A stretch of DNA of 64,000 nucleotides, from assembly GCA_949752745.1 (NCBI GenBank), contig OX457028.1, forward strand, positions 3,695,996 to 3,759,995, given 5' to 3'. Positions within the stretch are counted from its first letter, which is position 1. Each line of letters starts with the position of its first letter. The notes under the pieces are model-generated. The model was not told where the DNA came from, did no database searches, and saw nothing but the letters and a program-made list of their open reading frames with translations. The translations under genes were made by a program, and so were the position numbers. Positions 1-40,230 of the stretch are shown here, piece by piece. Source of the DNA: Protula sp. h YS-2021. Lineage: Eukaryota; Annelida; Polychaeta; Sabellida; Serpulidae.

Positions 1-78
1 ATACCCGGGCTCGAACCACCAACCTTCCGGGCATGGGTCCAACCAGGAGTCCCACGCTCTACCAACTGAGCTATTCCG
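1..78 (-). other. tRNA-like sequence at left end
   Basis: On the minus strand this has a tRNA box A (TAGCTCAGTTGGTAGAG) and box B (GGTTCGAGCCC) at normal tRNA spacing, with an acceptor-like stem start. The anticodon arm and T stem do not pair properly, so I call it tRNA-like (SINE-head or tRNA-derived) and not a functional tRNA. It is oriented outward from the element. Its 3' acceptor half would lie beyond the window start. Confidence 0.6.
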
Positions 79-164
79 GACTGAACCAGAATGTATTGTG
101 AGAACATGCCATATAAGGCTATAATGCACACATTCATGTCTGGTCCAAAAACCCCTATGCTATA

Positions 165-600
165 GTAGTGGGAAAATGGTGGTTCTAGAACAACTTTAAT
201 AAATGTAGTTTTTCCAAAACATATGATGTGTCAGATAAGTTTTAGCATTTTACCATGCTACTTATTCGAATGTTCTAAAGTTATAGTAGTGGAAAAATGG
301 TGGTTCTTGACCAACTTTAACAAATTTAGTTTTTGACAACATATGATATATAAAATAAGTTTTATCATTTTAGCATGCTACTTATTCAAATGTTCTAAAA
401 TCATAGTAGGGGAAAACGATGCTTCTAGACCAACTTTAACAAATTTCGTTTTTTGACAACATATGATGTATAAATAAATTTGAACATTTTACCATGTTGT
501 AGTAGGGGAAAAATCAGAGTTCTAAAACAACTTTAACAAATGTAGTTGTTTTTTGTTGTTGAAAACATATGATATACAAAATAAGTTTGACATAAGACAT
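165..600 (+). repeat. ~95-125-base subterminal repeats, about four units
   Basis: Units start near 165, 285, 404 and 499. Each begins with AGTAGTGGGAAAA or AGTAGGGGAAAA, continues through AACTTTAACAAAT and ACATATGAT, and ends with ATTTTACCATG. The units are diverged. The same series occurs in reverse complement in the right arm at about 3435-3870. Confidence 0.75.
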
Positions 601-749
601 AAGTTTTTTTTTGGTGAGAAGAGCACACCATTCAAACATGTATTCGAATGGAAAGCCTCATTCAAAGACGTATTCGAATGGCAAGCCCCATTTGAAACAC
701 GTGTTCGAATTATTTTTGGAACATATTACGTCGTGGTATTTTTCAACAA

Positions 750-920
750 TTTTTTGAACAGGTTCAACAATTGTTCAACAAATTGTTCAACAAGTTGTTC
801 AACATGTTGAACATGTTGAACATGTTGAGCATGTTCAAAATGTTCAACATGTTGAACATGTTGAATTTGTTGTTCAACATGTTGTTCAACATGTTCAACA
901 AGTTGTTGTTCAACAAGTTG
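750..920. repeat. GTTCAACA/TGTTGAAC palindrome cluster (left arm)
   Basis: About 170 bases consist almost entirely of GTTGAAC and GTTCAAC words separated by AT, giving nested palindromes such as TGTTGAACATGTTCAACA. The cluster sits directly upstream of the TATA box at 924-932. The arrangement suggests an array of sites for a dimeric DNA-binding protein or a structure-forming tract. It is mirrored at 3140-3280. Confidence 0.8.
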
Positions 921-923
921 TTG

Positions 924-932
924 TATATAAAG
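924..932 (+). promoter_or_regulatory. TATA box of zinc-finger gene
   Basis: TATATAAAG lies 53 bases before the start codon at 985, so transcription would start near 955 and leave a short leader. It lies inside the inverted repeat, and an identical box faces the other way at 3131-3139. Confidence 0.65.
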
Positions 933-984
933 CTATGTTTAAAGACTTTCTCTTCATTTGAAAAGTGTAGGTTGAACAGAAAGG

Positions 985-1710
985 ATGTGTAAATGCAACG
1001 TTTGTTCGAAATCTTACAATTGGCCACAAAGTCTTAAAACACACTTAAAGGTTGCTCACTCTTCAGAAGTGGATGAAGAATCGGATATGGAAAACCCTGT
1101 GAAACTACCTTTCACGGAAACTTTAGATGAGTCTTCTACGGAAAGTCAAAGCGTCAACATGGCTGAAAAGAATGCACATGCTTGTGCAGAATGTGGTGCA
1201 TTATACAACAGCGAAGAAGCTTTGCTCAAACATATGGAGCAGTGTGGTGAGGATGCTGATGACAGGAGTTCTGAAAGTGAGTCAGAAACAGACTCTGAAA
1301 GTGAGTCAGAAATAGACTCTGTTTGGTATGATATGGTTCAAGAAGTCTACGATAACTATAAAGACAATTTTCAAGAAAAGGTTTCAGAATATGAAGAACA
1401 AGGACTTGAAGATGCAAGTGAAATAGCAAGTGATGACCTTCGACCCATTTATAAGCATGGGCTAAAACAACTGTTTATGAGACTATTCAACTATACCCAG
1501 CGTCTAGAACAAAGCCAACATTATCAAACCATTTTAGAGGACTTTAATTACTTTGTTGATGAAAAACATTACAAGTATTCAAAGGCACTAAAGGCGGCTA
1601 TAAGGAAAAACAATGCATTCTTTGAAGAGCTACTAGCTAAGGAAGAGGAGGAGGGTGGTGAAGAAAGTGGCATGGACAGTGAACAGAGTGAGACAGATGA
1701 AGAACAATAG
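985..1710 (+). CDS. Acidic two-finger zinc-finger protein of the 4-kb element
   Basis: Intronless, 241 aa. Residues 4-25 form a C2H2 finger (C4, C7, H20, H25). Residues 67-87 form a C2HC-type finger (C67, C70, H83, C87). A Ser/Glu-rich acidic stretch with SESE repeats follows at about 93-110. The last ~130 residues look helical and charged and end in a Glu-rich tail. The ATG at 985 is the first after the TATA box. An AATAAA lies at 1732-1737, 22 bases past the stop. The first finger begins inside the inverted repeat, so the other arm repeats its start. The likely role is sequence-specific DNA binding, perhaps at the palindromes in the arms; this is inference. I do not recognise the C-terminal domain. 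Confidence 0.8.
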   Translation: MCKCNVCSKSYNWPQSLKTHLKVAHSSEVDEESDMENPVKLPFTETLDESSTESQSVNMAEKNAHACAECGALYNSEEALLKHMEQCGEDADDRSSESESETDSESESEIDSVWYDMVQEVYDNYKDNFQEKVSEYEEQGLEDASEIASDDLRPIYKHGLKQLFMRLFNYTQRLEQSQHYQTILEDFNYFVDEKHYKYSKALKAAIRKNNAFFEELLAKEEEEGGEESGMDSEQSETDEEQ

Positions 1711-2246
1711 ACTTATTTGACTAAACCTTATAATAAAGACTTTATAAATGTTGTAATATTTTATTAACTTAAGTGTTGTGTGTTAATATATGTCTTGCTT
1801 TGCAACATATGAAGTCGTAAGGTTCCTGACGCGGTGTGAATTCACCCGTAAACCATATATCATATATTATATATTATAATTAAGTATTGCATTATTATGT
1901 AATATATTCAAGTATTGTATAATTACGTATTCTATTCAAGTGTTTTATTATTATGTATTCTATCCAAGTATTGTATGAGAAAAATAAATAAGTTGAAAAG
2001 CATTATATGTGTTTTTATTGAATATTACAAATATGTACAATTATGATAAAACAAAACTATTTCAAATATATATTATGTTAATACATGCGCAGACTCACAA
2101 GAACTTAACTTAAAATGTTATAAAAACTGACTTCACATGAACATAGATAATGTTAATTTTATAGTCTACATATGAAGACAATTTTATTTGAACTACATAT
2201 CAAATGTATATGTCCATATGAGTCAAAACTAAGTTTCAAATTCTTG
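1711..2246. other. Intergenic core between the convergent genes
   Basis: AT-rich spacer holding both polyadenylation signals (1732-1737 on +, 2014-2019 on -). Around 1880-1980 there are short repeats of CAAGTATTGTAT and ATTATGTATTCTAT. No further reading frame is convincing. Confidence 0.6.
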
Positions 2247-2918
2247 TCAAGCTTCAAAACCTTCCCTCCAATCTTCTGCACTGAGGGTGATGAAATCATA
2301 GCATCCACTAAGCTCATCATGCTGTAAAAACTGTATACGGTCATCTCGCTGTCTACTCAACGTCTTCTGACAGTCACTGCATTGATATAGAACCATTTTC
2401 TGAAGCATGAGATCCACTGACGTCATTTGCTTCTTCAGCATTTGCCAATCTTTCAATGGCAACAAAATTCCCTTCTTGGTAGAATGTAACCTCCCAGATG
2501 TATGATCCGTAATATATTCACGAATGTTAACCATCACTTTCTGTTGATATTTCGCCAATTTAATATATATTTCTCCATTAATAGGTAGCATAACCGGTAA
2601 ATCGTCTACACTCATCTTCTTCATGGTGGTAGCAGCTTTACGCTCCGGTTCTCGCTTCATTTTAGGCTCTGTCTTAATTTTTCGCTTTTTACACGGCGGC
2701 GCCATAGCTGGTAACTCATCTCTTTTCATCTTTCTAAGATGTGGTCGCTTTTGACGCTGCTGACGTGACTTCGCCTTAGACTTTACCATGGGCATTGCCT
2801 TAGACTTTGCTGTAGGTATTGTCTCAGGCTTTACTATAAAATTTTCTGCAAGCATTATCTCGGACTTTTCTACAGGCATTGTCATAGATGGTAGTTGTTG
2901 TTCGCTCACTGCAGACAT
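2247..2918 (-). CDS. PC4-domain (transcriptional coactivator p15-like) protein
   Basis: Intronless, 223 aa from the ATG at 2918. Residues 1-110 are basic and Pro/Lys-rich, with a nuclear-signal-like PPCKKRKIK at 74-82 and imperfect repeats of KSKAMP and DELPAM. Residues about 113-176 match the PC4/Sub1 fold: an IYIKL strand, then VMVNIREY, then KKGILLPLKDW and a final helix. In PC4 this domain binds single-stranded DNA and dimerises. A CSDC pair follows at 180-183. TATA-like CATAAAAGG lies at 2972-2980, about 55 bases upstream. An AATAAA lies at 2014-2019 on this strand. The gene converges on the zinc-finger gene. A PC4 protein in a small inverted-repeat element is unexpected; a role in replication or transcription of the element is inference. 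Confidence 0.82.
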   Translation of the reverse strand: MSAVSEQQLPSMTMPVEKSEIMLAENFIVKPETIPTAKSKAMPMVKSKAKSRQQRQKRPHLRKMKRDELPAMAPPCKKRKIKTEPKMKREPERKAATTMKKMSVDDLPVMLPINGEIYIKLAKYQQKVMVNIREYITDHTSGRLHSTKKGILLPLKDWQMLKKQMTSVDLMLQKMVLYQCSDCQKTLSRQRDDRIQFLQHDELSGCYDFITLSAEDWREGFEA

Positions 2919-2971
2919 GTTCACACTTCAGTATCTTGATACAGAATGTGTGTTACGTCTGAGGGCGGGTG

Positions 2972-2980
2972 CCTTTTATG
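2972..2980 (-). promoter_or_regulatory. TATA-like box of PC4-domain gene
   Basis: CATAAAAGG on the minus strand lies 54-62 bases before the PC4 start codon. This is nearly the same spacing as for the zinc-finger gene. It lies in the unique core just inside the right arm. Confidence 0.5.
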
Positions 2981-3130
2981 CTTTGTAGTGAGTTGTCTTA
3001 ATATGTTTAGAAATAACTTTACCACGTTTGCCTTTGTGGCCAATTATAAGATTTCGAACAAACGTTGCATTTACACATCCTTTCGGTTCAACCTACACTA
3101 TTCAAATGAAGAGAAAGTTATTAAACATAG

Positions 3131-3139
3131 CTTTATATA
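3131..3139 (-). promoter_or_regulatory. Duplicate TATA box in right arm
   Basis: TATATAAAG on the minus strand is the arm copy of 924-932. It could drive a longer PC4 transcript carrying the 19-codon remnant of the zinc-finger start as an upstream ORF. Confidence 0.5.
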
Positions 3140-3280
3140 CAACAAATTGTTGAACAACAACTTGTTGAACATGTTGAACATGTTGAACATGTTCAACATG
3201 TTGAACATTTTGAACATGTTCAACATGTTCAACATGTTGAACAACTTGTTGAACAATTTGTTGAACAATTGTTGAACATG
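3140..3280. repeat. GTTCAACA/TGTTGAAC palindrome cluster (right arm)
   Basis: Mirror copy of 750-920 with fewer words. It lies upstream of the minus-strand TATA box at 3131-3139. The shorter length accounts for part of the length difference between the arms. Confidence 0.8.
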
Positions 3281-3951
3281 CTCAAAAAATTGTGGAACAA
3301 TGCCACGACGTAATATGTTCCAAAAATAATTCGAACACGTGTTTCAAATGGGGCTTGCCATTCGATCACGTCTTTGAATGGGGCTTTCCATTCAAATACA
3401 TGTTTGAATGGTGTGCTCTTCTCACCAAAAAATACTTATGTGTTATGTCAAACTTATTTTATACATCATATGTTTTAAAAATATGCTAAATTTGTTAAAG
3501 TTGTTTAGAACTCTGATTTTTCCCCTACTACAACATGGTAAAATGATCAAACTTATTTATACATCATATGTTGTCAAAAAAACGAAATTTGTTAAAGTTG
3601 GTCTAGAAGCATCGTTTTCCCCTACTATGGTTTTAGAACATTTGAATAAGTAGCATGCTAAAATGATAAAACTTATTTTATATATCATATGTTGTCAAAA
3701 ACTAAATTTGTTAAAGTTGGTCTAGAACCATCATTTTTCCACTACTATAACTTTAGAACATACGAATAAGTAGCATGGTAAAATGCTAAAACTTATCTGA
3801 CACATCATATGTTTTTCAAAAACTACATTTATTAAACTTGTTCTAGAAACACCATTTTCCCACTACTGTAGCATTGGGGTTTTTGAACCAGACATGAATG
3901 TGTGCATTATAGCCTTATATGGCATGTTCTCACAATACATTCTGGTTCAGT

Positions 3952-4036
3952 CCGGAATAGCTCAGTTGGTAGAGCGTGGGACTCCTGGTTGGACCCATGC
4001 CCGGAAGGTTGGTGGTTCGAGCCCCGGTATGGACAG
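3952..4036 (+). other. tRNA-like sequence at right end
   Basis: This mirrors the copy at 1-78. GTCCGGA at the start can pair, with one mismatch, with TATGGAC at the end, like a 7-bp acceptor stem. The D-arm GCTC/GAGC and the box B are clear. The anticodon stem is not standard and the T stem is poorly paired. It reads outward. It may be the integration target, a polymerase III promoter of the element or a captured SINE head. Confidence 0.6.
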
Positions 4037-4059
4037 CCTAACCCTAAACCATAGAGTGC

Positions 4060-4180
4060 ATTATGAATGTGTATAATGAATGAATATTATTAATGAGTAC
4101 ATTATGAATGAGTACATTATGAATGAATACGTGATGAATTTGTATGATAAATGTGTATGATGAATGTGTTATGAATGAGT
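4060..4180 (+). repeat. ATTATGAATG minisatellite
   Basis: Degenerate 10-13-base units built on ATTATGAATGAGTAC run from just outside the tRNA-like end. They are preceded by CCTAACCCTAAACC, which resembles two telomeric repeats. Confidence 0.6.
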
Positions 4181-4229
4181 GCGCTATGGCCGGGGGGGGA
4201 GGGGGGATGGTCTGAAATTATGAGCTGAA

Positions 4230-4830
4230 AGAAGGGACGTTTCCTAGGGGTCTGACGTCATTATGACGTCACAAGTGGCGTGGAACACCCATGGGGGTTC
4301 TGGACCAATAGAATGTTCTAGAAAAAAGTGGTGTGGAACTCTCGTTTCCTCATGATAGACAGATGGTAGAAGGGACGTCTCCTAGGGGTCTGACGTCATT
4401 ATGACGACAAAAAGTGGCCTGGAAGTCTTGTTAGGGTTAGGGTCACATGACCGATGATTGACAAGTCACGTGACTGATGATGATTGACAGGTCACGTGAC
4501 TAATGACGTCATGGTGATTGACAGGTGACTTAGGGTTATGCTGCTTAGGAGAGTCTTAATCTGATGTCATGACATCATAACGTCATTTTGACGTCATGAT
4601 AACGCCATGATGACGTCATTATAACGTCATGGTGATGTCATTTTAGTGTCATGATGACGCCATTGTAACGTCATGATTACGTCATTGGCACGGGCGCGCG
4701 GTCCTATAAATCATCTGGTCCAGAACTCTCATAGGTGTTCCAGACCATCTGGTCCAGAACTCTCGTGGGTCTTCCAGACCAACCTTTCTGACGTAATTTT
4801 GACGTCATACCTGGTCTGGGACTCTCTTTT
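4230..4830. repeat. TGACGTCA (CRE-like) palindrome cluster with near-tandem blocks
   Basis: Many exact or one-mismatch TGACGTCA words occur (for example 4252, 4264, 4392, 4502 and a run at 4560-4680). GGTCACGTGAC E-box palindromes occur near 4445-4500. The block GGGACGTTTCCTAGGGGTC is repeated at about 4237 and 4372, and CCAGAACTCTC blocks repeat at 4715-4770. TTAGGGTTAGGG occurs at about 4433. No gene is seen. Confidence 0.6.
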
Positions 4831-4839
4831 TCCAACTAC

Positions 4840-5720
4840 TCATAATGCTGCTGTTTTCTTTCATTTATATAACTCGATCTGTGGGAAGCTTATTTTTCAA
4901 CATTGCCACAATGTTTCTCAAAAAGGCTAGGGAAGTATCTCCTTTTGCAATATTTTAAAATATAATTAAGTTTATATCTATAGTTCTTGAATTTAGCAAT
5001 CAGTTTTATTATAAATTTTTTGCCTTAAGAAATCTATGGATATCTTGTCTTTTTATGGCATACTTTAAGTGAATATTTGCAACACACGTTTTATTTTATT
5101 CTTTTCATTTCTTAAGCATGTTTATGGAACAAGTTGCAAAGTATGTAAATGGTTTAACGATTGGAGGGAAAATTTTGTTTGTAGTGCACACGGTAACATT
5201 TTCACAGTCAAGTGAATTCTTATCTGTAAACGAATTTGCTAAATCTAGCAGTTCTTTCTCATCCCTGTTTATACTGAACACAGTTCTTTCGTTTAAATTT
5301 TCAAGTATTCAAAAGCGTTTCCGTCACCAACGTTATTAATTTTCTTCACGAAACTATGACATATGTTTGTTAAGAAATTATTAAAAGCTCTTTTTCTTCT
5401 TACAATTTTTGCCGTCTGAACTATTAAACGCAATCTAAATAAGCATAATGCTGCTGTTTTCTTTTAATGATATAATTCTATGTGTACCAATCCTTTTTTA
5501 ACATTGCCACAATGTTTCTCTAAAGGGCTAGGGAAGTATTTCTTTTTGCGTTATTTCAAAATATAATTCAGTTTCTATCTATCATTGTTATTATTATAAT
5601 TTTTTTGCCTTAAGAAATGGATAACTTGACTTTTTATGAATACTTTTAAGTGACTATTTGCAACACAGGTTTTATTTTATCCTTTGCATTTTCTTAAGCA
5701 TGTTAATGGACAGTGCTTAA
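4840..5720 (+). repeat. Diverged direct duplication of ~290 bases
   Basis: 4845-5150 and 5443-5710 share CATAATGCTGCTGTTTTCTTT, the words ACATTGCCACAATGTTTCTC and GGCTAGGGAAGTAT, and a final TTGCAACACA...TTTTATTTTAT. The copies are about 600 bases apart in the same orientation. No coding potential is evident. Confidence 0.65.
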
Positions 5721-8700
5721 AGTGGCTTAAATTTATTGTTAGCTGTCGTGACCTTGATTTACATTGAATCTGATTAATACGTTATGCCAAATACATTTTT
5801 AAGGTCAAAGAATTTTCATTTCAAATTATGTAATTGTTTGTTAATTAATATTTGGCAGGAGGCTATTTCCCACCTGCCAAACTGGCGAAAGCATCTTCTT
5901 TTCGAGAAAGAGGATATTGTTCTCGTTTCAATATCGGATTTAGTATATTCTTGAAATCTCCACGATTTAGGTGGTTTGTTGGTTCCTCGTGAACTTCGTG
6001 TTTCAATGAATACAGGAGCTTTCACAAACTTTTATGCGACATCGCCTTTGACGTTAAACTTGGCCTGGAAATTTCTAGGTAATCTATATCAGGTTCAAAT
6101 AGCGATATATGATGGGTAGGCATATCTTGGCGGCGTGGAGATCTTGCAGGCAATTCATTGGTAACGTTATTATCCGATTTGCTGTGTTAAGTTATTTGCA
6201 TGTCAATTCAGACCAGTTTTGAAACTCTTATCTAATCTCGACTCTTTTGTGGCTTTAGATACAACTGGAGCGTATAACCTGCACTTCCACGATTTGTAAT
6301 GAATTGTTACATGTATTACAACTAGGCATTTCACGAGTTCTGCTTGGAGATGTCGTAGTTTTCTGCTTTTTCTTTCTGTAGAAATGTTGTTCATAAATGT
6401 TCTGTGTCAGATTGAGCACCCACTACACACTTCAGGTTCATCAGATATGTCATTTAGTTGTGACATCTCCATAACCCCATTTCTGAGTGTACCACCTACA
6501 TTGTGAACCTTGAGATAAAACACATCCTTATACGTTTTCGATTTTCCTGATGTTGATCTTTATTTTTAAACTTTTCATTCTGGTATGATGTGGGACTTGC
6601 CCTGTCCTCTCCCCTTTCTGTCATAAAGCCTATTTCTACAGGCTTTACTGATGTGATGAATCCTCTTGTAGTAGCTGTAAGCCACGGGAAGGCGGGAATA
6701 AGGTCGGCTGTAGGCTGTAGGTTGTAGACACATTATTGCAAAAGGTTGTCTGAATGAGAAACAAATAAAAAGAATTCTGCAAAATCCCACTACTCTCACT
6801 GACTCATTATAGAAACACACTTAAAACCTTTACTGCTTCACATTATACTTATTAGTTCAAAGATAAATACAAACAAGCACAGTATTTATCTAATATGACT
6901 CGCCTAAGTTCCTTAAACTGCGTTATCAACATGATCCTCAACATCAAACATGTAGTGAACTCTTAAATAAACACATGAACTAAACGATAAATCGGTTCAC
7001 ATTAACGTTAAATATTGAGAGGTTAAACACATGTCAGAGACTAAGTCCGGATTTAGACCAAGAACAGCTCTCATTAGATAAAAATAAATTCATAGAAATA
7101 TTAATGAAGAAACGTCCATTTGTTACACAAAGGGAGCGATCATTCGTTACTGTAATTGCAGTGCTAATTTTTACACGGATATGCGTCCGGCGTGTGTTCA
7201 CTAGAGAGTTCAGAGTCCTGAAATATAATTTTCTGCTTGTACTCTGAATACTAATAGTTTCGCGATAACATCTATTACGGTAATTGTCATGAGCGGCATG
7301 TTTACGTTTCTCAGAGTAGCTTATACTGATTTCGGTTTCATTTTGATTTTCAGTTTCACGACTCGCTTCGTCACAAGGCTGTCTCAATTTCGTAACTTTC
7401 GTCAAACTTGTGATCGGTTTTTTAGATATTAATTTCTTGCGAATATCACTATTTTGAACCCTAGTATATATCGAATCTGTCTTAAATGTTTGCTTCAGTG
7501 TGTCGTTTCTAAGTCACAATTGATATTAAGCTGTTTTGTCACAAAATCGGAAGCAGTTTTTGAGCACCAATTAGGCTTGATAATGACGCATACCTTAAAG
7601 AGTCTGCGAAACGATTACATACAAAAATGTGAACCTTTATCGCATCTTTTGAATGTGTCTATATACCATATCTGATTTTCAGCCATATTGAGGGATATTA
7701 CCATAAATGTAAATGTTGGACATGTCCCACCCTTTGGTGTGTGTACAATGCGTTGTTAACAACCGACCAATCAGCGTGTGGCAGTGTCAATAACCTGATC
7801 AAATAATATCCACTTATCGCTGTCCAGGTCGGCAGGATTTTTTTAACCGTCCATATTTTTTTTACTTTGATGGACAAAATTCAATGTGAATCGCACGCTT
7901 TTAGATATTATTTATCTTTTGTACTATCTGCATGTAGACTGTAAGTTTTGTCTTGTTTTTTTTTCGGGTTACGGTTTGCGGACTTTGCTGATTCATACAC
8001 ATGGTAGTTCTGAATTTTGTCAAACCTGCTTTCGTTCGCTGAAATCTTCCCGGCCATCAGGAACTTCAGTATAGGTTACAGTTGATATACAGTGAGGTCA
8101 TTTTTAAGTGATTTTCTCGAAAATCTTATCTCCAGGGCTTTCCTGCGAGCAGTAGAGTTTTAACTTTTCGCTGTCTTCCGTCGCTTCTGTCAGCAACAGG
8201 GCATTGCATGGTATGCAGGGGAATACATGGTCGGTACTGCAGCGACTTTTCTTTAGAATTGTTGCAACCACTGTGTTTTTCGCCACACTTTCATTTCCAG
8301 ATGCTGTGTCAATTTGTTGAGCCGGACACCAATTTCCTGAATGATTGTGTCGTTGCAGCGTCAAGAGTTTACTTAGGCTGAGTGTTTTTTATTGTCGTCT
8401 TTTTGCGCCGGATTTGTTGAAAGAAGGAATCGACGAAGCCCGACTGAATACACAAGATACTCTTATGCGCACAGCCTTGAATCCGTAGCACAAGAAGCCT
8501 AGGCAACGACAACCGTTCAGACCCTCCACGCTAGCTGTCAAGAAGCTGCCTGAGTCTTCAAGTGTGTCTACTCCACAGGCGAAGATGCCCAAGTTGGGCA
8601 ACAAAAAAGTCGGCCGCTGCTACGAAGCAAAGATAACAACCAGTTAAAGTATCCGCTCGAATTCGAACAGTGATCTCGTTCAGATACTTTAAGTTCTCAT

Positions 8701-11225: not shown

Positions 11226-12778
11226 CCCACTTGCAATGGTATAATCTATCTGGTTAAAGACATATTTTCAGTCTTTCCACATAATTGTCAGCTTCCGACT
11301 TATTATAATGAACAAGGACATCGAAGTATAATGTAATCTCAAATAATCAAATTCAGTTTTCCAACCGTTTTCGAGATAATGGTCAACTTCCGGTTTTTGA
11401 CCTTGACCATGACGGAGGAGGTCAAGGTCACCGAGGTACCTCTTATACAACGTCTTTTAGGCTCAAAGGGTCGAAAATAAGCTCAAAATCGCTCTATCTC
11501 TAACCATTTTCGAGATAATGGTCAACTTCCGGTTTTTGACCTTGACCATGACGGAGGAGGTCAAGGTCACCGAGGTACCTCTTACATAACGTCTTTTAGG
11601 CCCAAAGGATCGGAAATAAGCTCAAAATCGCTCTATCTCTAACCGTTTTCGAGATAATGGTCAACTTTCGGTTTTTGACCTTGACCATGACGGAGGAGGT
11701 CAAGGTCACCGAGGTACCTCTTATGTAACGTCTTTTAGGCCCAGAGGGTCGAAATTAAGCTCAAAATCGCTCTATCTCTAACCGTTTTCGAGATAATGGT
11801 CAACTTCCGGTTTTTGACCTAGACCATGACGGAGGAGGTCAAGGTCACCGAGGTACCTCTTACATAACGTCTTTTAGGCCCAAAGGGTCGAAAATAAGCT
11901 CAAAATCGCTCTATCTCTAACCGTTTTCGAGATAATAGTCAACTTCCGGTTTTTGACATTGACCATGACGGAGGAGGTCAAGATCACCGAGGTACCTCTT
12001 ACATAACGTCTTTTAGGCCCAAAGGGTCGAAAATAAGCTCAAAATCGCTCTATCTCTAACCGTTTTCGAGATAATGGTCAACTTCCGGTTTTTGACCTTG
12101 ACCATGACGAAGGAGGTCAAGGTCACCGAGGTACCTCTTATATAACGTCTTTTAGGCCCAAAGGGTCGAAAATAAGCTCAAAATCGCTCTATCTCTAACC
12201 GTTTTCGAGATAATGGACAATTTGTCTCTAAGGGATTTCAATATACAAAAGTCACATGACCTTGACCTTGACACTGAATGTCGAGATTTCATCAATGATG
12301 TTACTGCCTACTGACACTGTACACGTGTTGAAACAAGGATTTGAGCGCTATTTCCAGCAAATTTCCGTGATGGAATAGGTTTTTGAAAAAATATTTTGAC
12401 CTCAATTTGACCTTGAAGGTCAAGGTCAAGATCAAAAAATTTTGCGGATTTCACGACAACTCATTACCCTCTATGTTTCTGCCAAATGCCGTCTTTCTAC
12501 TACAAACCGTGTAGGAGGAGTTTTCTGGAAACCAATTTGTGGTAAAAAAACTTTGACCTCAACTTGACCTTGACCTTGAAGGTCAAGGTCAAAAAAAATT
12601 TGCGGATTTCACGACATCTCGTTGCCCTCTATCTCTGTGCCAAATTTCATCGTCCTACGTCAAATAGCGTAGGAGGAGTTTTCTGGAAACCTCCGTGACA
12701 GAAAAAAAAAAGGGAAGGAATAAACGGCCAGAATTCTTTGCAAAGTATACCCATTTGCAAACTCTGTTTGCAAGTGGG
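11226..12778. mobile_element. 1.55-kb MITE-like element with internal tandem repeats
   Basis: An 11-base perfect inverted repeat, CCCACTTGCAA at 11226-11236 and TTGCAAGTGGG at 12768-12778, bounds a block made of a 139-base tandem array plus two ~150-base repeats near 12400-12700. No transposase is present. A target-site duplication is not clear. A hairpin TTCGCTA/TAGCGAA lies just outside at about 11201. Confidence 0.55.
11366..12225 (+). repeat. 139-base tandem array, about six copies
   Basis: CGAGATAATGG recurs at 11372, 11511, 11650, 11789, 11928, 12067 and 12206, exactly 139 bases apart each time. Each unit contains GACCTTGACC ... GGTCAAGGTC, which are complementary and could form a stem, then GAGGTACCTC. 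Copies differ at only a few positions, so the array is young or homogenised. Confidence 0.9.
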
Positions 12779-24122: not shown

Positions 24123-24908
24123 ATTGGCTTATTTAAAAAAGAGCCTTTTCTGAATACAAAAATTTAATCTAAATGGCCACCACCTGTGCTTTTCATACAT
24201 ACAGAAATGCCATTTATCAAGTTGCTAAAATGTGACTGCTTCACCATTAAAATTGCTACTGTTTATTTTTATTGTTACTCACTCTTGAAACGATTAAAAA
24301 TGTGCAGTGAAAGCTTCAGGATAAACAACAAAAGACATAATTTGAGAAAAAAACCTCAAACTGTTGCTCTATGCTCATTCATCTCAATGCAAATGGAGTC
24401 GTTATTTACCAAAAAAAAAAAAAAATCAGTGCACATCCCGCATTAAATGTAAACATTTTTGTGATTGGCTCAGAGTCGAAACTCTTTATTCTTGTATTAC
24501 ATTTCCAAAGATTTTGATTGGTTCATAACTTCATTGCCTGGTCAATTCATGAACGAGCTTTATCAAGAAAGAATTATAAAGATCTTTCGCCCTCAGTGAT
24601 TGTGTGTGTGTGTTGTGCGTGAAACGTGAATCGAATAAACCTGGCAACGAAAAAACAACAGAACATTTGACCAGGAAAAAACATATATCCTTTCTTTTTT
24701 GGTGTAAAACAAAACAACCTGTTCAACAAACACTATATTGTTATCAATTAGCTCAAACGGTACACCACTTTTCTTGACTACAAATGACAGTTATGCACAA
24801 ATCCTTGCATATCGCCCGTCAATTGGGTCCATTCGACTGGTGAATTCCGAAGTCAGAGGCAACAGTGCGCAGGAGAGTCAACTAATACCAGTTAGAGCGA
24901 TCATCAAC

Positions 24909-25628
24909 ATGCCCCCCAAGAACAGAAATGCCAGTGTGGATGAGATAGCGTCTCTTTCCCAACAAATAACTGAACTTAAGGAAAGTGTTCAAACCCTACT
25001 CGAGGGGCAAGCAGCATTGTTATCATTACAACAGACAGTAAACAAGCTGGTCGAGGAAAATAAAAAGAAGGACATCGAAATAGCTTCTCTCCAACAACGA
25101 GTAAGTGATCTGGAACAATACACAAGGAGAGATGATATTATCATCACTCGACTCAAGACGAAAAAAGCCAGCTGGGCCAGAGCGGTGGACAAAGAATCTC
25201 CGGAAAATGATGCTGAGGCACCGGAATACGAGCAGAAAAGTGTAGAAGGCCAAGTCATTGACTTTTTACAGGGAAAAGGGGTGTTACTGTGTGACAGTGA
25301 AATATCTGCCTGTCACACACTTAAAGCGAAAGTGCCCACTATTGTTGTAAGGCTTGTTAATCGGAAATCTAAGGTGCGATTATTATCCGAAGCAAAAAAG
25401 CTGAAAGGATCAAACGTGCATATCAATGAGCACTTGAGTAAGAGTAACGCTGATTTGTTCAGAAGAGCTAGAATTCTAAAACGAAAAAATGTTGTACTCG
25501 CCACGTTCACCAGAAATGGTAAAGTTTTTGTCAAAACAAAGGGGCGAACTCCCGAAGAAGTTCAGAAACTTCTGATCAGGGATGAAAGCGATTTCATGAA
25601 ACATGGTTTCGCCAAGTATCTCGACTAA
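24909..25628 (+). CDS. Retrotransposon ORF1 protein (coiled coil plus RNA-binding fold)
   Basis: 239 aa from MPPKN. The frame is open further upstream to 24738, but the later ATG fits ORF1 proteins better. Residues about 10-75 are a coiled coil (SLQQTVNKLVEENKKKD), ending in the LEQYTRRDDIIITRL motif seen in LINE ORF1 or transposase-22-like proteins. Residues 110-239 resemble the RRM and C-terminal domains (VRLVNRKSKVRLLSEAKKL, NADLFRRARILKR). In this class the protein coats element RNA. The frame is intact although ORF2 is broken. Confidence 0.75.
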   Translation: MPPKNRNASVDEIASLSQQITELKESVQTLLEGQAALLSLQQTVNKLVEENKKKDIEIASLQQRVSDLEQYTRRDDIIITRLKTKKASWARAVDKESPENDAEAPEYEQKSVEGQVIDFLQGKGVLLCDSEISACHTLKAKVPTIVVRLVNRKSKVRLLSEAKKLKGSNVHINEHLSKSNADLFRRARILKRKNVVLATFTRNGKVFVKTKGRTPEEVQKLLIRDESDFMKHGFAKYLD

Positions 25629-25689
25629 CAGCGTACTATGGGTTTTACTTTACTTAGTCTAGTGTTTACTTTTCTTTTGCTTACACACC

Positions 25690-27178
25690 ACCTTGATAGA
25701 AGAAGATCGTCGATGTATTAAATGCCAAAAAAATGTTGGTGAATTTGCGATTGAATGTTCAATTTGTAAAAAGTGGATCCATTGTAATGTATCCTTTCAA
25801 ATGGGCACTTTCCCGGATGAAGACTGCAAAAATTGTTCCTTTGTTTAAATCTGGCAACTGTTCATTGTTCACAAATTATAGGCCCGTTTCACTGCTACCT
25901 CAAATCTCCAAAATACTTGAGAAATTGTTTCACTTGCTTCTTATGTAATATATTGAGTCCAATAACTTATTCTCTGCTAGTCAATATGGGTTTAGAAATA
26001 AAAGGTCAACGTCATTAGCATAAGTCGATTTAACTGAGGAAATTACTGAAGCTATTGATAATAAGAAAGTTACTATTGGTGTTTTTATTGATCTGAAAAA
26101 AGCTTTTGACACAATTAATCATGAATTACTATTGAAAAAGCTTCATTATTATGGTGTTAGAGGGCTATCCAATAAGTGGATTTCTAGTTACCTGACAGGC
26201 AGGAAACAATTTGTAAAATTTAATGCTTCTGATTCTGATATGTTACCAATCACTTGTGGTGTACCTCAAGGATCTATTTTAGGCCCACTCCCATTGGTTT
26301 TATACATCAAAGACTTAGGAAATGTCTCAAATATTCTGAAGTTTGTGCTTTTTGCTGAAGACACGAACTTGTTCCTATCTGGTAATAATATTGTGGAAAT
26401 CTGTGAATCTATGAATGTAGAACTAGTGAATATAAATATGTGGTTTAAACTCAACAAACTGTCGCTCAACGTGTTAAAGACAAATTATATGGTTTTTACA
26501 AATAAGCCTTCTTTTGAAAATTTTACCCTAAAAATTGATGAATATGAAATAGACAGAGTGTATGTAACCAAGTTCTTAGGTGTTCTGGTTGACAGTAGGC
26601 TGACTTGGTCCAATCATATTTTGAATATCAAACAAAAACTCTCGAAATGTACTGGTGTTATATATAAATGTAGAGACATTTTGGTGCGCTACGCACATTA
26701 TACTGTTCTCTCTTCCTACCGTATATATCTTACTGTGTTGAAGTGTGGGGTACTGCTTATAAATGTGCAACCAAATGCATCTCTTTACTCCAGAAAAAAA
26801 TAGTTAGAATTATTTGCAAAGTTAACAAATACGATCATACAAGTTCTCTGTTTCTTTATTTAAAGTTATTAAAGTTTTTATGATTTAGTTGATTTTAGAG
26901 TGTCTACTGTAATGTATAAAGCTTATTTGGGTGACTTGCCCGAAAATATTCAATGTAAAGTAGCTATTAGAGACGCTAACTCGAAATACTCATTGAGAAG
27001 CATCGGGAAATTTAGGACCAAGTATGCAAGAACGTCCTTAAAAGGTCGTTGTGTATGTATTTATGGTATCGCTCTTTTTAATACTTTACCGGATGATGTC
27101 AAAAGTGCAAAAAACTTCTGCATGTTCAAAAAATTGTACAAGAAAAATGTCTTTCTTCAGTATGAAAACAGTCTTTAA
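25690..27178 (+). pseudogene. Broken ORF2 reverse transcriptase
   Basis: It begins with a PHD-like cysteine segment (RRCIKCQKNVGEFAIECSIC..W.H). A frameshift near 25815 leads into KTAKIVPLFKSG...YRPVSLLPQISK. Stops near 25945 and 26020 interrupt it before the main domain (DLKKAFDTINHELL, GVPQGSILGPL). The catalytic YADD-type box reads FAEDTNLF, so one catalytic Asp is replaced by Glu. The C-terminal part (26900-27178) ends ..FNTLPDDVK...MFKKLYKKN. Endonuclease sequence is absent between the Cys segment and the RT, which implies an internal deletion. Confidence 0.8.
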
Positions 27179-38417: not shown

Positions 38418-40230
38418 ACCAACGTCATAACACAGAGTACGTGTATCCTTTCTGTAGATCACTACACAGAGTGGATGTATCTATAGATAACCTTGCAGAG
38501 TGCATCCTTTCTGAAGATCATCACGCAGCGTGCATCTTTTCTATAGATCACCATGCAGAGTGCATATTTTCTGTGGATCACCATGCAGAGTGCACCTTTT
38601 CTGTAGATCACCATTCAGAGTGCATATTTTCTGTGGATCACCATGCAGAGTGCATCCTTTCTGTAGATCATCATACAGCGTGCATCTTTTCTATAGATCA
38701 CCATGCAGAGTGCATCCTTTCTGTAGATCATCATACAGCGTGCATCTTTTCTATAGATCACCATGCAGAGTGCATATTTTATGCAGATCACCATGCAGAA
38801 TGCATCCTTTCTGTATATCACCATGCAGAGTGCATATTTTCTGTGGATCACCATGCAGAGTGCATCCTTTCTGTAGATCACAATACATATGCATCATTTC
38901 TGAAGATCACTATGCAGAGTGCATATTTTCTGTAGATCACCATGCAGAGCGCATCCTTTCTGTAGATCATCATACAGAGTGCACCCTTTCTGTAGATCAC
39001 CATGCAGAGTGCATCCTTTCTGTAGATCACCATACAGAGTACATCCTTTCTGAAGATGACCATGCAGAGTGCATCCTTTCTGTAGATCATCATGCAGAGG
39101 GCATATTTTCTATAGATCACCATATAGAGTGCATCCTTTCTGAAGATGACCATGCAGAATGCATCCTTTCTGTAGATCACCATGCAGAGAGTATGTTTTC
39201 TATAGATCACCATGCAGAGTGCATCCTTTCTGTAGGTCACCATGCAGAGTGCATATTTTATGTAGATCACCATGCAGAATGCATCCTTTCTGTAGATCAC
39301 CATGCAGAGTACATATTTTCTGTGGATCACCATGCAGAGTGCATCCTTTCTGTAGATCACCATACAGAATGCATCCTTTCTGAAGATCACTATGCAGAGT
39401 GCGTATTTTCTGTAGATCACCATGCAGAGCGCATCCTTTCTGTAGATCATCATACAGAGTGCACCCTTTCTGTAGATCACCATGCAGAGTGCATCCTTTC
39501 TGTAGATCACCATATAGAGTACATCCTTCCTGAAGATGACCATGCAGAGTGCATCCTTTCTGTAGATCACCATGCAGAGGGCATATTTTCTATAGACCAC
39601 CATGCAGAGTGCATCCTTTCTGTAGATCACCATATAGAGTATATCCTTTCTGAAGATGACCATGCAGAGTGCATCCTTTCTATAGATCACCATGCAGAGT
39701 GCATCCTTTCTGTAGATCACCATGCAGAGTGCATATTTTCTGTGTATCACCATGCAGAGTGCATCCTTTCTGTAGATCACCATACAGAATGCATCCTTTC
39801 TGAAGATCACTATGCAGAGTGCATTTCTTCTGTAGATCACCATGCAGGGCGCATCCTTTCTGTAGATCATCATACAGAGTGCACCCTTCTTGTAGATCAC
39901 TACGTAGAGTGGATCCTTTCTGTAGATCACCATGAAGAGTGCATCCTTTCTGTAGATCACCATGCAGAGTGCATCCTTTCTGTAGATCACCATATAGAGT
40001 AAATCCTTTCTGAAGATGACCATGCAGAGTGTATCCTTTCTGTAGATCACCATGCAGAGGGCATATTTTCTATAGATCACCATGCAGAGTGCATCCTTTC
40101 TGTAGATCACCATGCAGAGGGCATATTTTCTATAGATCATCATGCACAGTGCATCCTTTCTGTAGATCATCATGCAGAGTGCATCCTTTCTGTAGAATAC
40201 CATGCGGAGTGGATCTTTTCTCTGGTACCC
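38418..40230 (+). repeat. 1.8-kb satellite of ~60 units of 30 bases with higher-order repeat
   Basis: The basic unit is CACCATGCAGAGTGCATCCTTTCTGTAGAT-like; by words, CATGCAGAGTGCATCC then TTTCTGTAGATCAC. Lines at 38941 and 39421 are identical over 60 bases, and neighbouring units also match 480 bases apart. A further copy is 420 bases on (39841), so 16- and 14-unit higher-order repeats exist. Because 30 is divisible by 3, long frames stay open on both strands: + decapeptides SVDHHAECIL and CRSPCRVHPF, - decapeptide YRKDALCMVI. I treat these as by-products, not genes. Confidence 0.92.

Follow-up and report, generated by a model that had tools for sequence, protein, structure and literature searches.

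The window, a stretch of 64,000 nucleotides from the genome of the serpulid annelid Protula sp. h YS-2021 (contig OX457028.1, C5:3695996-3759995), begins inside a mobile element with two protein genes. This element is very probably a coding, non-autonomous Polinton/Maverick, that is, a satellite transposon. It shares its arms with PolB-bearing Polintons of the same genome, has Polinton-type ends and target duplications, carries two recurrent genes and contains promoter-like sequence in its arms. We infer its mobilisation in trans, by PolB and integrase from Polintons, and the roles of both of its proteins. A sequence-only reading of the window had offered three possibilities. That of a satellite of another element is supported by the arms common to PolB-bearing Polintons. 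A self-replicating element finds no support, as only two genes recur and neither is polymerase- or recombinase-like. A regulatory effect as a mobile cassette may arise as a by-product, since the arms hold promoter-like sequence, but the anatomy can be explained without it.

Boundaries and insertion site

The element had been described from sequence as a palindrome of about 4 kb with arms of about 1 kb. The inverted arms were confirmed (Table 1), but only the inner part of the element had been seen. The full window element measures 5,545 bp and extends from window position -704 to 4840 (C5:3695291 to C5:3700835), between the termini AGTAGTTGGAAA and TTTCCAACTACT. In L009, the fetched locus that contains the window copy with its flanks, it occupies positions 1296 to 6840. 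With the flanking genome added, the arms align at L009 1406-3031 and 5032-6642 with 91.3% identity, and their length is about 1.7-1.8 kb. The terminal hexamers are exactly AGTAGT and ACTACT. The element is bordered by a target-site duplication, and a paralogous empty site lies nearby. The surrounding sequence (window 4841-5600) is tandemly duplicated, with 87% identity over 285 columns, and one of the duplicates holds the element.

Dispersed copies and target duplications

The genome searched comprises 863 Mb in 218 contigs, and the copy numbers from these searches are lower bounds. The left arm gave at least 94 matches on contigs C1-C6 and C8-C10 (the best 40 of 5,904 candidates were scored), and zinc-finger matches are present on every contig from C1 to C11 among the matches listed. 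The copies that were read differ in their flanks and target duplications. Duplications were counted in 16 of the 30 loci fetched with flanks, namely those with both ends, the other 14 being omitted for want of a clear end pair; the pairs were picked from terminus-motif matches with the flanks in view, not blind. Exact 6-bp duplications occur in 11 of these 16 copies, and at least five of the six bases agree in 14. For random pairs of 6-mers the corresponding values are 0.04% (0.0004) and 0.67% (0.0067). The duplicated 6-mers are diverse among copies. On recount, one omitted locus (L022) provided a 17th copy with the exact duplication AATTAT on both sides, and in another (L028) the candidate ends yielded no duplication. 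Five of the 16 copies have the hexamers AGTAGT/ACTACT exactly at both ends, and 12 have at least one of them exactly; the remaining terminal hexamers are one or two bases off, often AGTAGG. A young copy of 7,210 bp (L040) has the duplication TCAGCC exact on both sides.

The copies are thus dispersed, and the element was mobile in the past. A search for further copies, ends, target duplications and empty sites, as the sequence-only reading had advised, returned many copies, exact duplications in the majority of those counted, and the empty site at 5300-5582, in support of the mobility that it had suspected.

Short derivatives were also observed. L021 1363-3520 is 2,158 bp long, contains neither gene and has an exact CCAATT duplication. 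C9:22220035-22222411 has the same arms as an inverted pair 1.7 kb apart.

Two recurrent genes

The core of the window element contains two convergent open reading frames (ORFs). Their earlier assignment to a zinc-finger and a PC4-domain protein holds (PF13912 and PF02229; Table 1), as does the statement that no recombinase or polymerase is recognised, since neither gene resembles one. The zinc-finger protein matches PF13912 at 2.4e-7 and PF00096 at 3.9e-5, just under the cut-off of the latter. No nuclease or recombinase domain was found by Pfam in the zinc-finger protein, and no transposase-like ORF was recognised in the element. The longest further ORF in the window copy has 109 aa, and only the zinc finger and PC4 recur.

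According to tblastn on the 30 loci, both genes are present in 22, only the zinc finger in two, only PC4 in one and neither in five. The order is convergent in all 22 loci with both genes. Many older copies among these loci are interrupted by stops or frameshifts. The best 150 of 6,123 candidates from the genome search with the zinc-finger protein were scored; each matches at E < 1e-131, and 146 are without a stop. Apart from the window copy, their identity is 88-91%, and many have identical scores. The PC4 copy number derives from the fetched loci. In three younger copies, L040, L041 and L042, the zinc-finger protein has 244 aa, and the PC4 protein has 181, 140 (shortened) and 180 aa, respectively. 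The C-terminus of the window PC4 protein differs, and most other copies read stop earlier.

The candidates drawn from a collection of 5.8 billion proteins, in which molluscs are represented, included no homologue of either protein at E <= 1e-3, and the viral contigs searched gave none. The predicted structures of both proteins are poor (mean predicted local distance difference test scores of 42.7 and 45.7) and unusable.

Arms shared with PolB-bearing Polintons

An arm of the two-gene element lies upstream of an intact PolB gene, in the matching orientation (locus L046). It is 93.7% identical to both arms of L042 over 619 bp, and it matches the two arms of the window element at 84.3% over 432 bp and 85.0% over 426 bp. 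The part common to the window element and the PolB-bearing Polinton is the subterminal-repeat stretch 161..590. In the stretch that follows (L047) the PolB frame stays open and no zinc finger is present, which rules out a two-gene copy merely parked upstream of PolB. Of one intact PolB element more than 14 kb long, about 4.3 kb was read, and this part held neither the zinc finger nor PC4.

The arm piece from L046 was then used as a query, and 40 long matches were listed (the best 40 of 2,721 candidates). Ten are identical over all 652 bp, among them the place from which the query was taken. Eighteen of the 40 are at most 15 kb from one of the 150 listed PolB genes, where 0.21 would be expected, and the distances recur at about 3.4-3.7 or 10.2-10.6 kb. 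Fourteen inverted arm pairs were found, one spaced 1.7 kb and 13 spaced 13.9-14.3 kb; a listed PolB lies inside seven of these 13. The 13.9-14.3-kb pairs look like young full-size Polintons, and the resident Polintons are presumably active. One full-size Polinton is located at C5:3650257-3664851, about 30 kb to the left of the window element. It encloses a listed PolB, and both of its arm pieces are 100% identical to the query.

The PolB fragment of the older element described below matched all 150 scored loci (the best 150 of 5,695 candidates), many with frames of 1,242-1,356 aa. A PolB piece of 566 aa from one of these loci (P0001) contains exonuclease and polymerase motifs recognised by eye (DANNLYG, KLMNNSVFG, DTDS). 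Of its 7,989 scored relatives, 120 were listed; PF03175 and/or PF02945 occur in some of these, and two, from Mytilus edulis, bear the name DNA-directed DNA polymerase. This domain combination is one reported for Maverick POLB proteins, in which the excerpted text of PMC5803895 describes POLB2 together with an endonuclease VII domain, the latter predicted.

The arm fragment at one locus (L030/L039) led to an older PolB-bearing element of 27.4 kb, with arms at C1:105893577 (+) and C1:105920977 (-). It has AGTAGTTG ends and the exact 6-bp duplication ATAATC. From about 30 nt inside the end, its end regions are 79-90% identical to the two-gene copies L013 and L022 over 89-112 bp. Within this Polinton (C1:105893577-105920977), retroelement-like ORFs were seen by eye, and a truncated arm of the two-gene type is nested beside the PolB fragment.

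The genome search with PF03175 gave at least 84 matches, many in 1,351-aa frames. Of the PF03175 places, 49 were compared with 23 of the 150 PolB places listed, and no pair was closer than 20 kb. Because the two sets lie apart, two PolB lineages are likely in this genome. Some of the PF03175 PolB genes, probably of the other lineage, occur as inverted pairs 4-5 kb apart (for example, C3:98126045+ / C3:98130443- and C5:28717970- / C5:28723094+), which hints at palindromic or foldback Polintons. Pox_A32 gave two marginal matches, which were of no help in orienting Polintons.

Architecture of the arms

The arm of the window copy starts with the AGTAGT terminus, which is followed, going inwards, by GACGTCAT-rich sequence, a tRNA-like module, subterminal repeats, a palindrome array and a TATA-like box. 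The subterminal repeat units start with AGTAG(T/G)GG..AAA and resemble the terminus. The palindrome TGTT(G/C)AACA occurs 11 times in L009, 33 in L040, 11 in L041 and 17 in L042, and at most once in shuffled sequences. L009, L040 and L041 have a TATA-like box at -59 in each arm, and L042 has one in a single arm. In these four copies, the arms reach 47-49 nt into the zinc-finger gene; therefore, the same stretch recurs in the opposite arm, facing the PC4 gene.

No tRNA was found in the window by ARAGORN, and no Rfam match in it reached the gathering threshold. Nine loci were scanned with the Rfam tRNA model, which exceeded the 29-bit cut-off in L014, L028, L031, L033 and L040 and stayed below it in L009, L029, L041 and L042. 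The tRNA-like sequences above the cut-off lie at L028 1277/1555/6898, L031 2296, L014 6184/6340, L033 3550 and L040 6445. They are in or beside the arms, the placement being putative for L014 and L033, and those of L028 are mirrored in both arms (1277/6898). Such sequences could possibly act as RNA polymerase III promoters or insulators. Rfam matches to microRNAs and small nucleolar RNAs were discarded, as they were far below the cut-offs and in simple palindromic sequence.

Table 1. Features of the two-gene element and its insertion site in the window
Feature	Position	Strand	Evidence or remark
Visible part of element	1..4840	.	left 704 nt outside window; AGTAGTTGGAAA...TTTCCAACTACT termini at -704 and 4840
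Left arm (terminal inverted repeat), inner part	1..1031	+	93.0% inverted match to 3032-4030, 1,032 columns
tRNA-like module, left arm	7..73	-	A-box- and B-box-like motifs; no Rfam tRNA match in window copy
Subterminal direct repeats of about 120 bp, left arm	161..590	+	self-matches and terminus-like matches; 84.3% over 432 bp to L046
TGTT(G/C)AACA palindrome array (TGTTGAACA array)	740..930	+	5' of zinc-finger gene; 11 occurrences, at most 1 in 500 shuffles
TATA-like box TATAAAG	926..932	+	59 nt 5' of zinc-finger ATG
Zinc-finger gene	985..1710	+	241 aa with two C2H2 fingers, a linker rich in Ser/Glu and a conserved C-terminal region; first 47 nt within arm
PC4-domain gene	2247..2918	-	223 aa; PF02229 at 8.6e-10, residues 115-163
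Right arm (terminal inverted repeat)	3032..4840	-	ends ...TTTCCAACTACT; inverted alignment and terminus
Mirror TATA-like box, right arm	3131..3137	-	faces PC4 gene
Subterminal repeats of about 120 bp, right arm	3448..3870	-	self-matches; 85.0% over 426 bp to L046
tRNA-like module, right arm	3958..4024	+	see text
Target-site duplication, right copy CATAAT	4841..4846	+	left copy CATAAG outside window, 5/6 bases
Paralogous empty site	5300..5582	+	joined flanks align without element, 87%, 285 columns, one CATAAT

Age of the copies and selection on the genes

The arms of two of the three young copies are 97.5% (L040) and 98.2% (L042, over 2.3 kb) identical, and those of the third (L041) are 90.0% identical. 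The value of the window copy is 91-93%, lower than in the first two. For this reason, a recent origin of the window copy was rejected, and with it the earlier view that its high arm identity signals recent activity. The similar zinc-finger scores across copies indicate that the family had a burst of similar copies, of which the window copy is an older relative.

Selection bears on the strongest alternative, in which the element is an ordinary deletion derivative of a Polinton and both genes are leftovers or cargo without function in a satellite. This is unlikely, although the arms are indeed common to Polintons and the older copies appear to have evolved under weak selection. Tree-based omega (the ratio of nonsynonymous to synonymous substitution rates, dN/dS) on internal/terminal branches is 0.79/0.83 for the zinc finger and 0.88/0.92 for PC4. 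The median pairwise values are 0.58 (24 copies) and 0.68 (20 copies). However, stops on internal branches are rarer than expected: one and two were seen, which is 0.18 and 0.21 of expectation. In young copies, dN/dS is 0.25-0.31 for the zinc finger (three copies) and 0.19 for PC4 (one intact pair), with few substitutions behind these values; the PC4 pairs with the shortened L041 give 0.80 and 1.17. Constraint on the genes in active copies is suggested by these sequence comparisons, not proven. The 146 stop-free zinc fingers among the 150 scored also argue against leftovers, as does the lack of both genes in the part read of the intact PolB element. Moreover, zinc-finger and PolB places do not cluster: among the 150 x 150 listed pairs, none is within 10 kb (0.52 expected) and two are within 20 kb (1.04 expected).

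Further alternatives and points against

A self-sufficient new transposon would be another possibility, with the zinc finger as an unrecognised transposase and Polinton-like ends gained by capture or recombination. The lack of homologues of both proteins would fit such an origin. Nevertheless, it is very improbable: the 6-bp duplication, the end motif and the long arms are all Polinton-like, and in the zinc-finger protein Pfam recognises a pair of C2H2 fingers but neither a nuclease nor a recombinase domain.

Even less credible is a member of another superfamily, such as Ginger, Dada or IS3EU. Some of these make short target duplications, of 6 bp in IS3EU and 6-7 bp in Dada. The duplicated 6-mers are nevertheless diverse here, and the arms match PolB elements. 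Ginger elements, as far as the excerpt of PMC2836005 describes them, have TGTNR ends and inverted repeats of 40-270 bp, and they duplicate 4 bp of target sequence or, in TDD-4/5, 5 bp. The ends and duplication length of our element rule Ginger out, and its inverted repeats are not short. Finally, a local palindromic duplication or an assembly artefact, for which nothing speaks except the inverted repeat itself, is ruled out by dispersed copies with their own flanks and duplications and by the empty site; the doubt of a single copy or artefact raised by the sequence-only reading falls with the arm matches on nine contigs.

Several observations weigh against a non-autonomous Polinton. Two of the 16 copies share just four of the six duplication bases, and selection on the older copies appears weak. 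The end of the older PolB element matches the end of the window copy over 19 bp and that of L040 over 25 bp only. The PolB pieces were unscored by Pfam and had to be identified from motifs and from the annotations of their relatives. The PolB elements are known from pieces, and integrase and capsid genes were not among the pieces read. Ends and duplication were read for the older PolB element, not for the intact Polintons with 14-kb spacing.

Proposed mechanism and comparison with known systems

Since the element combines a Polinton signature and Polinton arms with no recognised Polinton enzyme, copying and integration in trans are the simplest account of a non-autonomous Polinton. The protein-primed PolB and the integrase would come from resident Polintons that have these arms too. 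Through their action the element would be copied from its two ends as linear DNA and inserted with a 6-bp target duplication. Both genes are probably transcribed inward from the two arms. The zinc-finger protein may bind the element's DNA, for example, at the palindrome array or the subterminal repeats. PolB of the protein-primed type replicates by strand displacement, and relatives of PC4 bind single-stranded DNA. Therefore, the PC4-type protein could be useful as a single-strand DNA-binding cofactor in strand-displacement replication or as a transcription coactivator at the element's own promoters.

Vertebrate Mavericks are characterised by (AGT)2...(ACT)2 or (AG)3...(CT)3 ends and 6-bp duplications; intact ones measure 12.7-24.6 kb and have inverted repeats of 46-1,447 bp (PMC8097293, excerpted text). 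The AGTAGT/ACTACT ends, 6-bp duplications and terminal inverted repeats of the element agree with those of Polintons/Mavericks (Polintoviruses), and its arms are common to PolB-bearing elements of the same genome. In contrast, it is only 5.5 kb long (7.2 kb in L040), shorter than the intact vertebrate Mavericks of that excerpt, and its inverted repeats exceed the range given there. It does not encode a protein-primed PolB, which sits in separate elements. Nor does it contain an ORF long enough for an integrase, ATPase, protease or capsid; the Pfam scan covered the zinc-finger and PC4 proteins.

Miniature inverted-repeat transposable elements (MITEs) and other non-autonomous DNA transposons rely on shared ends to move in trans. 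This genome, too, has short derivatives (the 2,158-bp copy in L021 and the 1.7-kb arm pair on C9), whereas the element itself retains two recurrent protein genes, and their layout is fixed. Virophages, transpovirons and phage satellites of the P4 or phage-inducible chromosomal island (PICI) type are small elements with their own proteins that exploit the replication machinery of a larger element. The logic of exploitation is analogous; here, there is no evidence of packaging, and the helper would itself be a transposon of this genome. The core of the PC4-type protein (residues 112-174) resembles human PC4/SUB1 (PDB 1pcf, 4usg; phmmer E ~1e-5), from which the protein differs in its long basic N-terminal region and in being encoded by a mobile element.

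Other features of the window

The window also contains a long, degenerate tandem array whose two strands both hold very long ORFs (38425-40225) and a tandem array with a period of about 139 bp and copies about 96% identical (11360-12223). A remnant resembling a long interspersed nuclear element was recognised by eye at 24738-26803, with a coiled-coil ORF followed by a reverse-transcriptase piece.

Significance

Non-autonomous DNA transposons usually retain little beyond their ends. Here, a small Polinton-type element with two genes in a fixed layout is present in many copies beside near-identical, presumably active Polintons. No description of such an element (a non-autonomous or defective Polinton, or PC4 with a Polinton/Maverick) was found by title in the open-access literature; a Repbase entry is possible. 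A more far-reaching version, which we regard as tentative and somewhat doubtful, is that the element is an obligate gene-carrying satellite, or hyperparasite, of animal Polintons. Its PC4-type and zinc-finger proteins would capture the polymerase and integrase, and perhaps capsids, and it would be amplified in step with its helper. If this is true, it would be the transposon-world counterpart of virophages and phage satellites. A single genome thus allows one to ask whether Polintons have coding satellites and what effect such a satellite has on its helper, supportive or suppressive. The system also bears on the role of a PC4-type protein in protein-primed strand-displacement replication.

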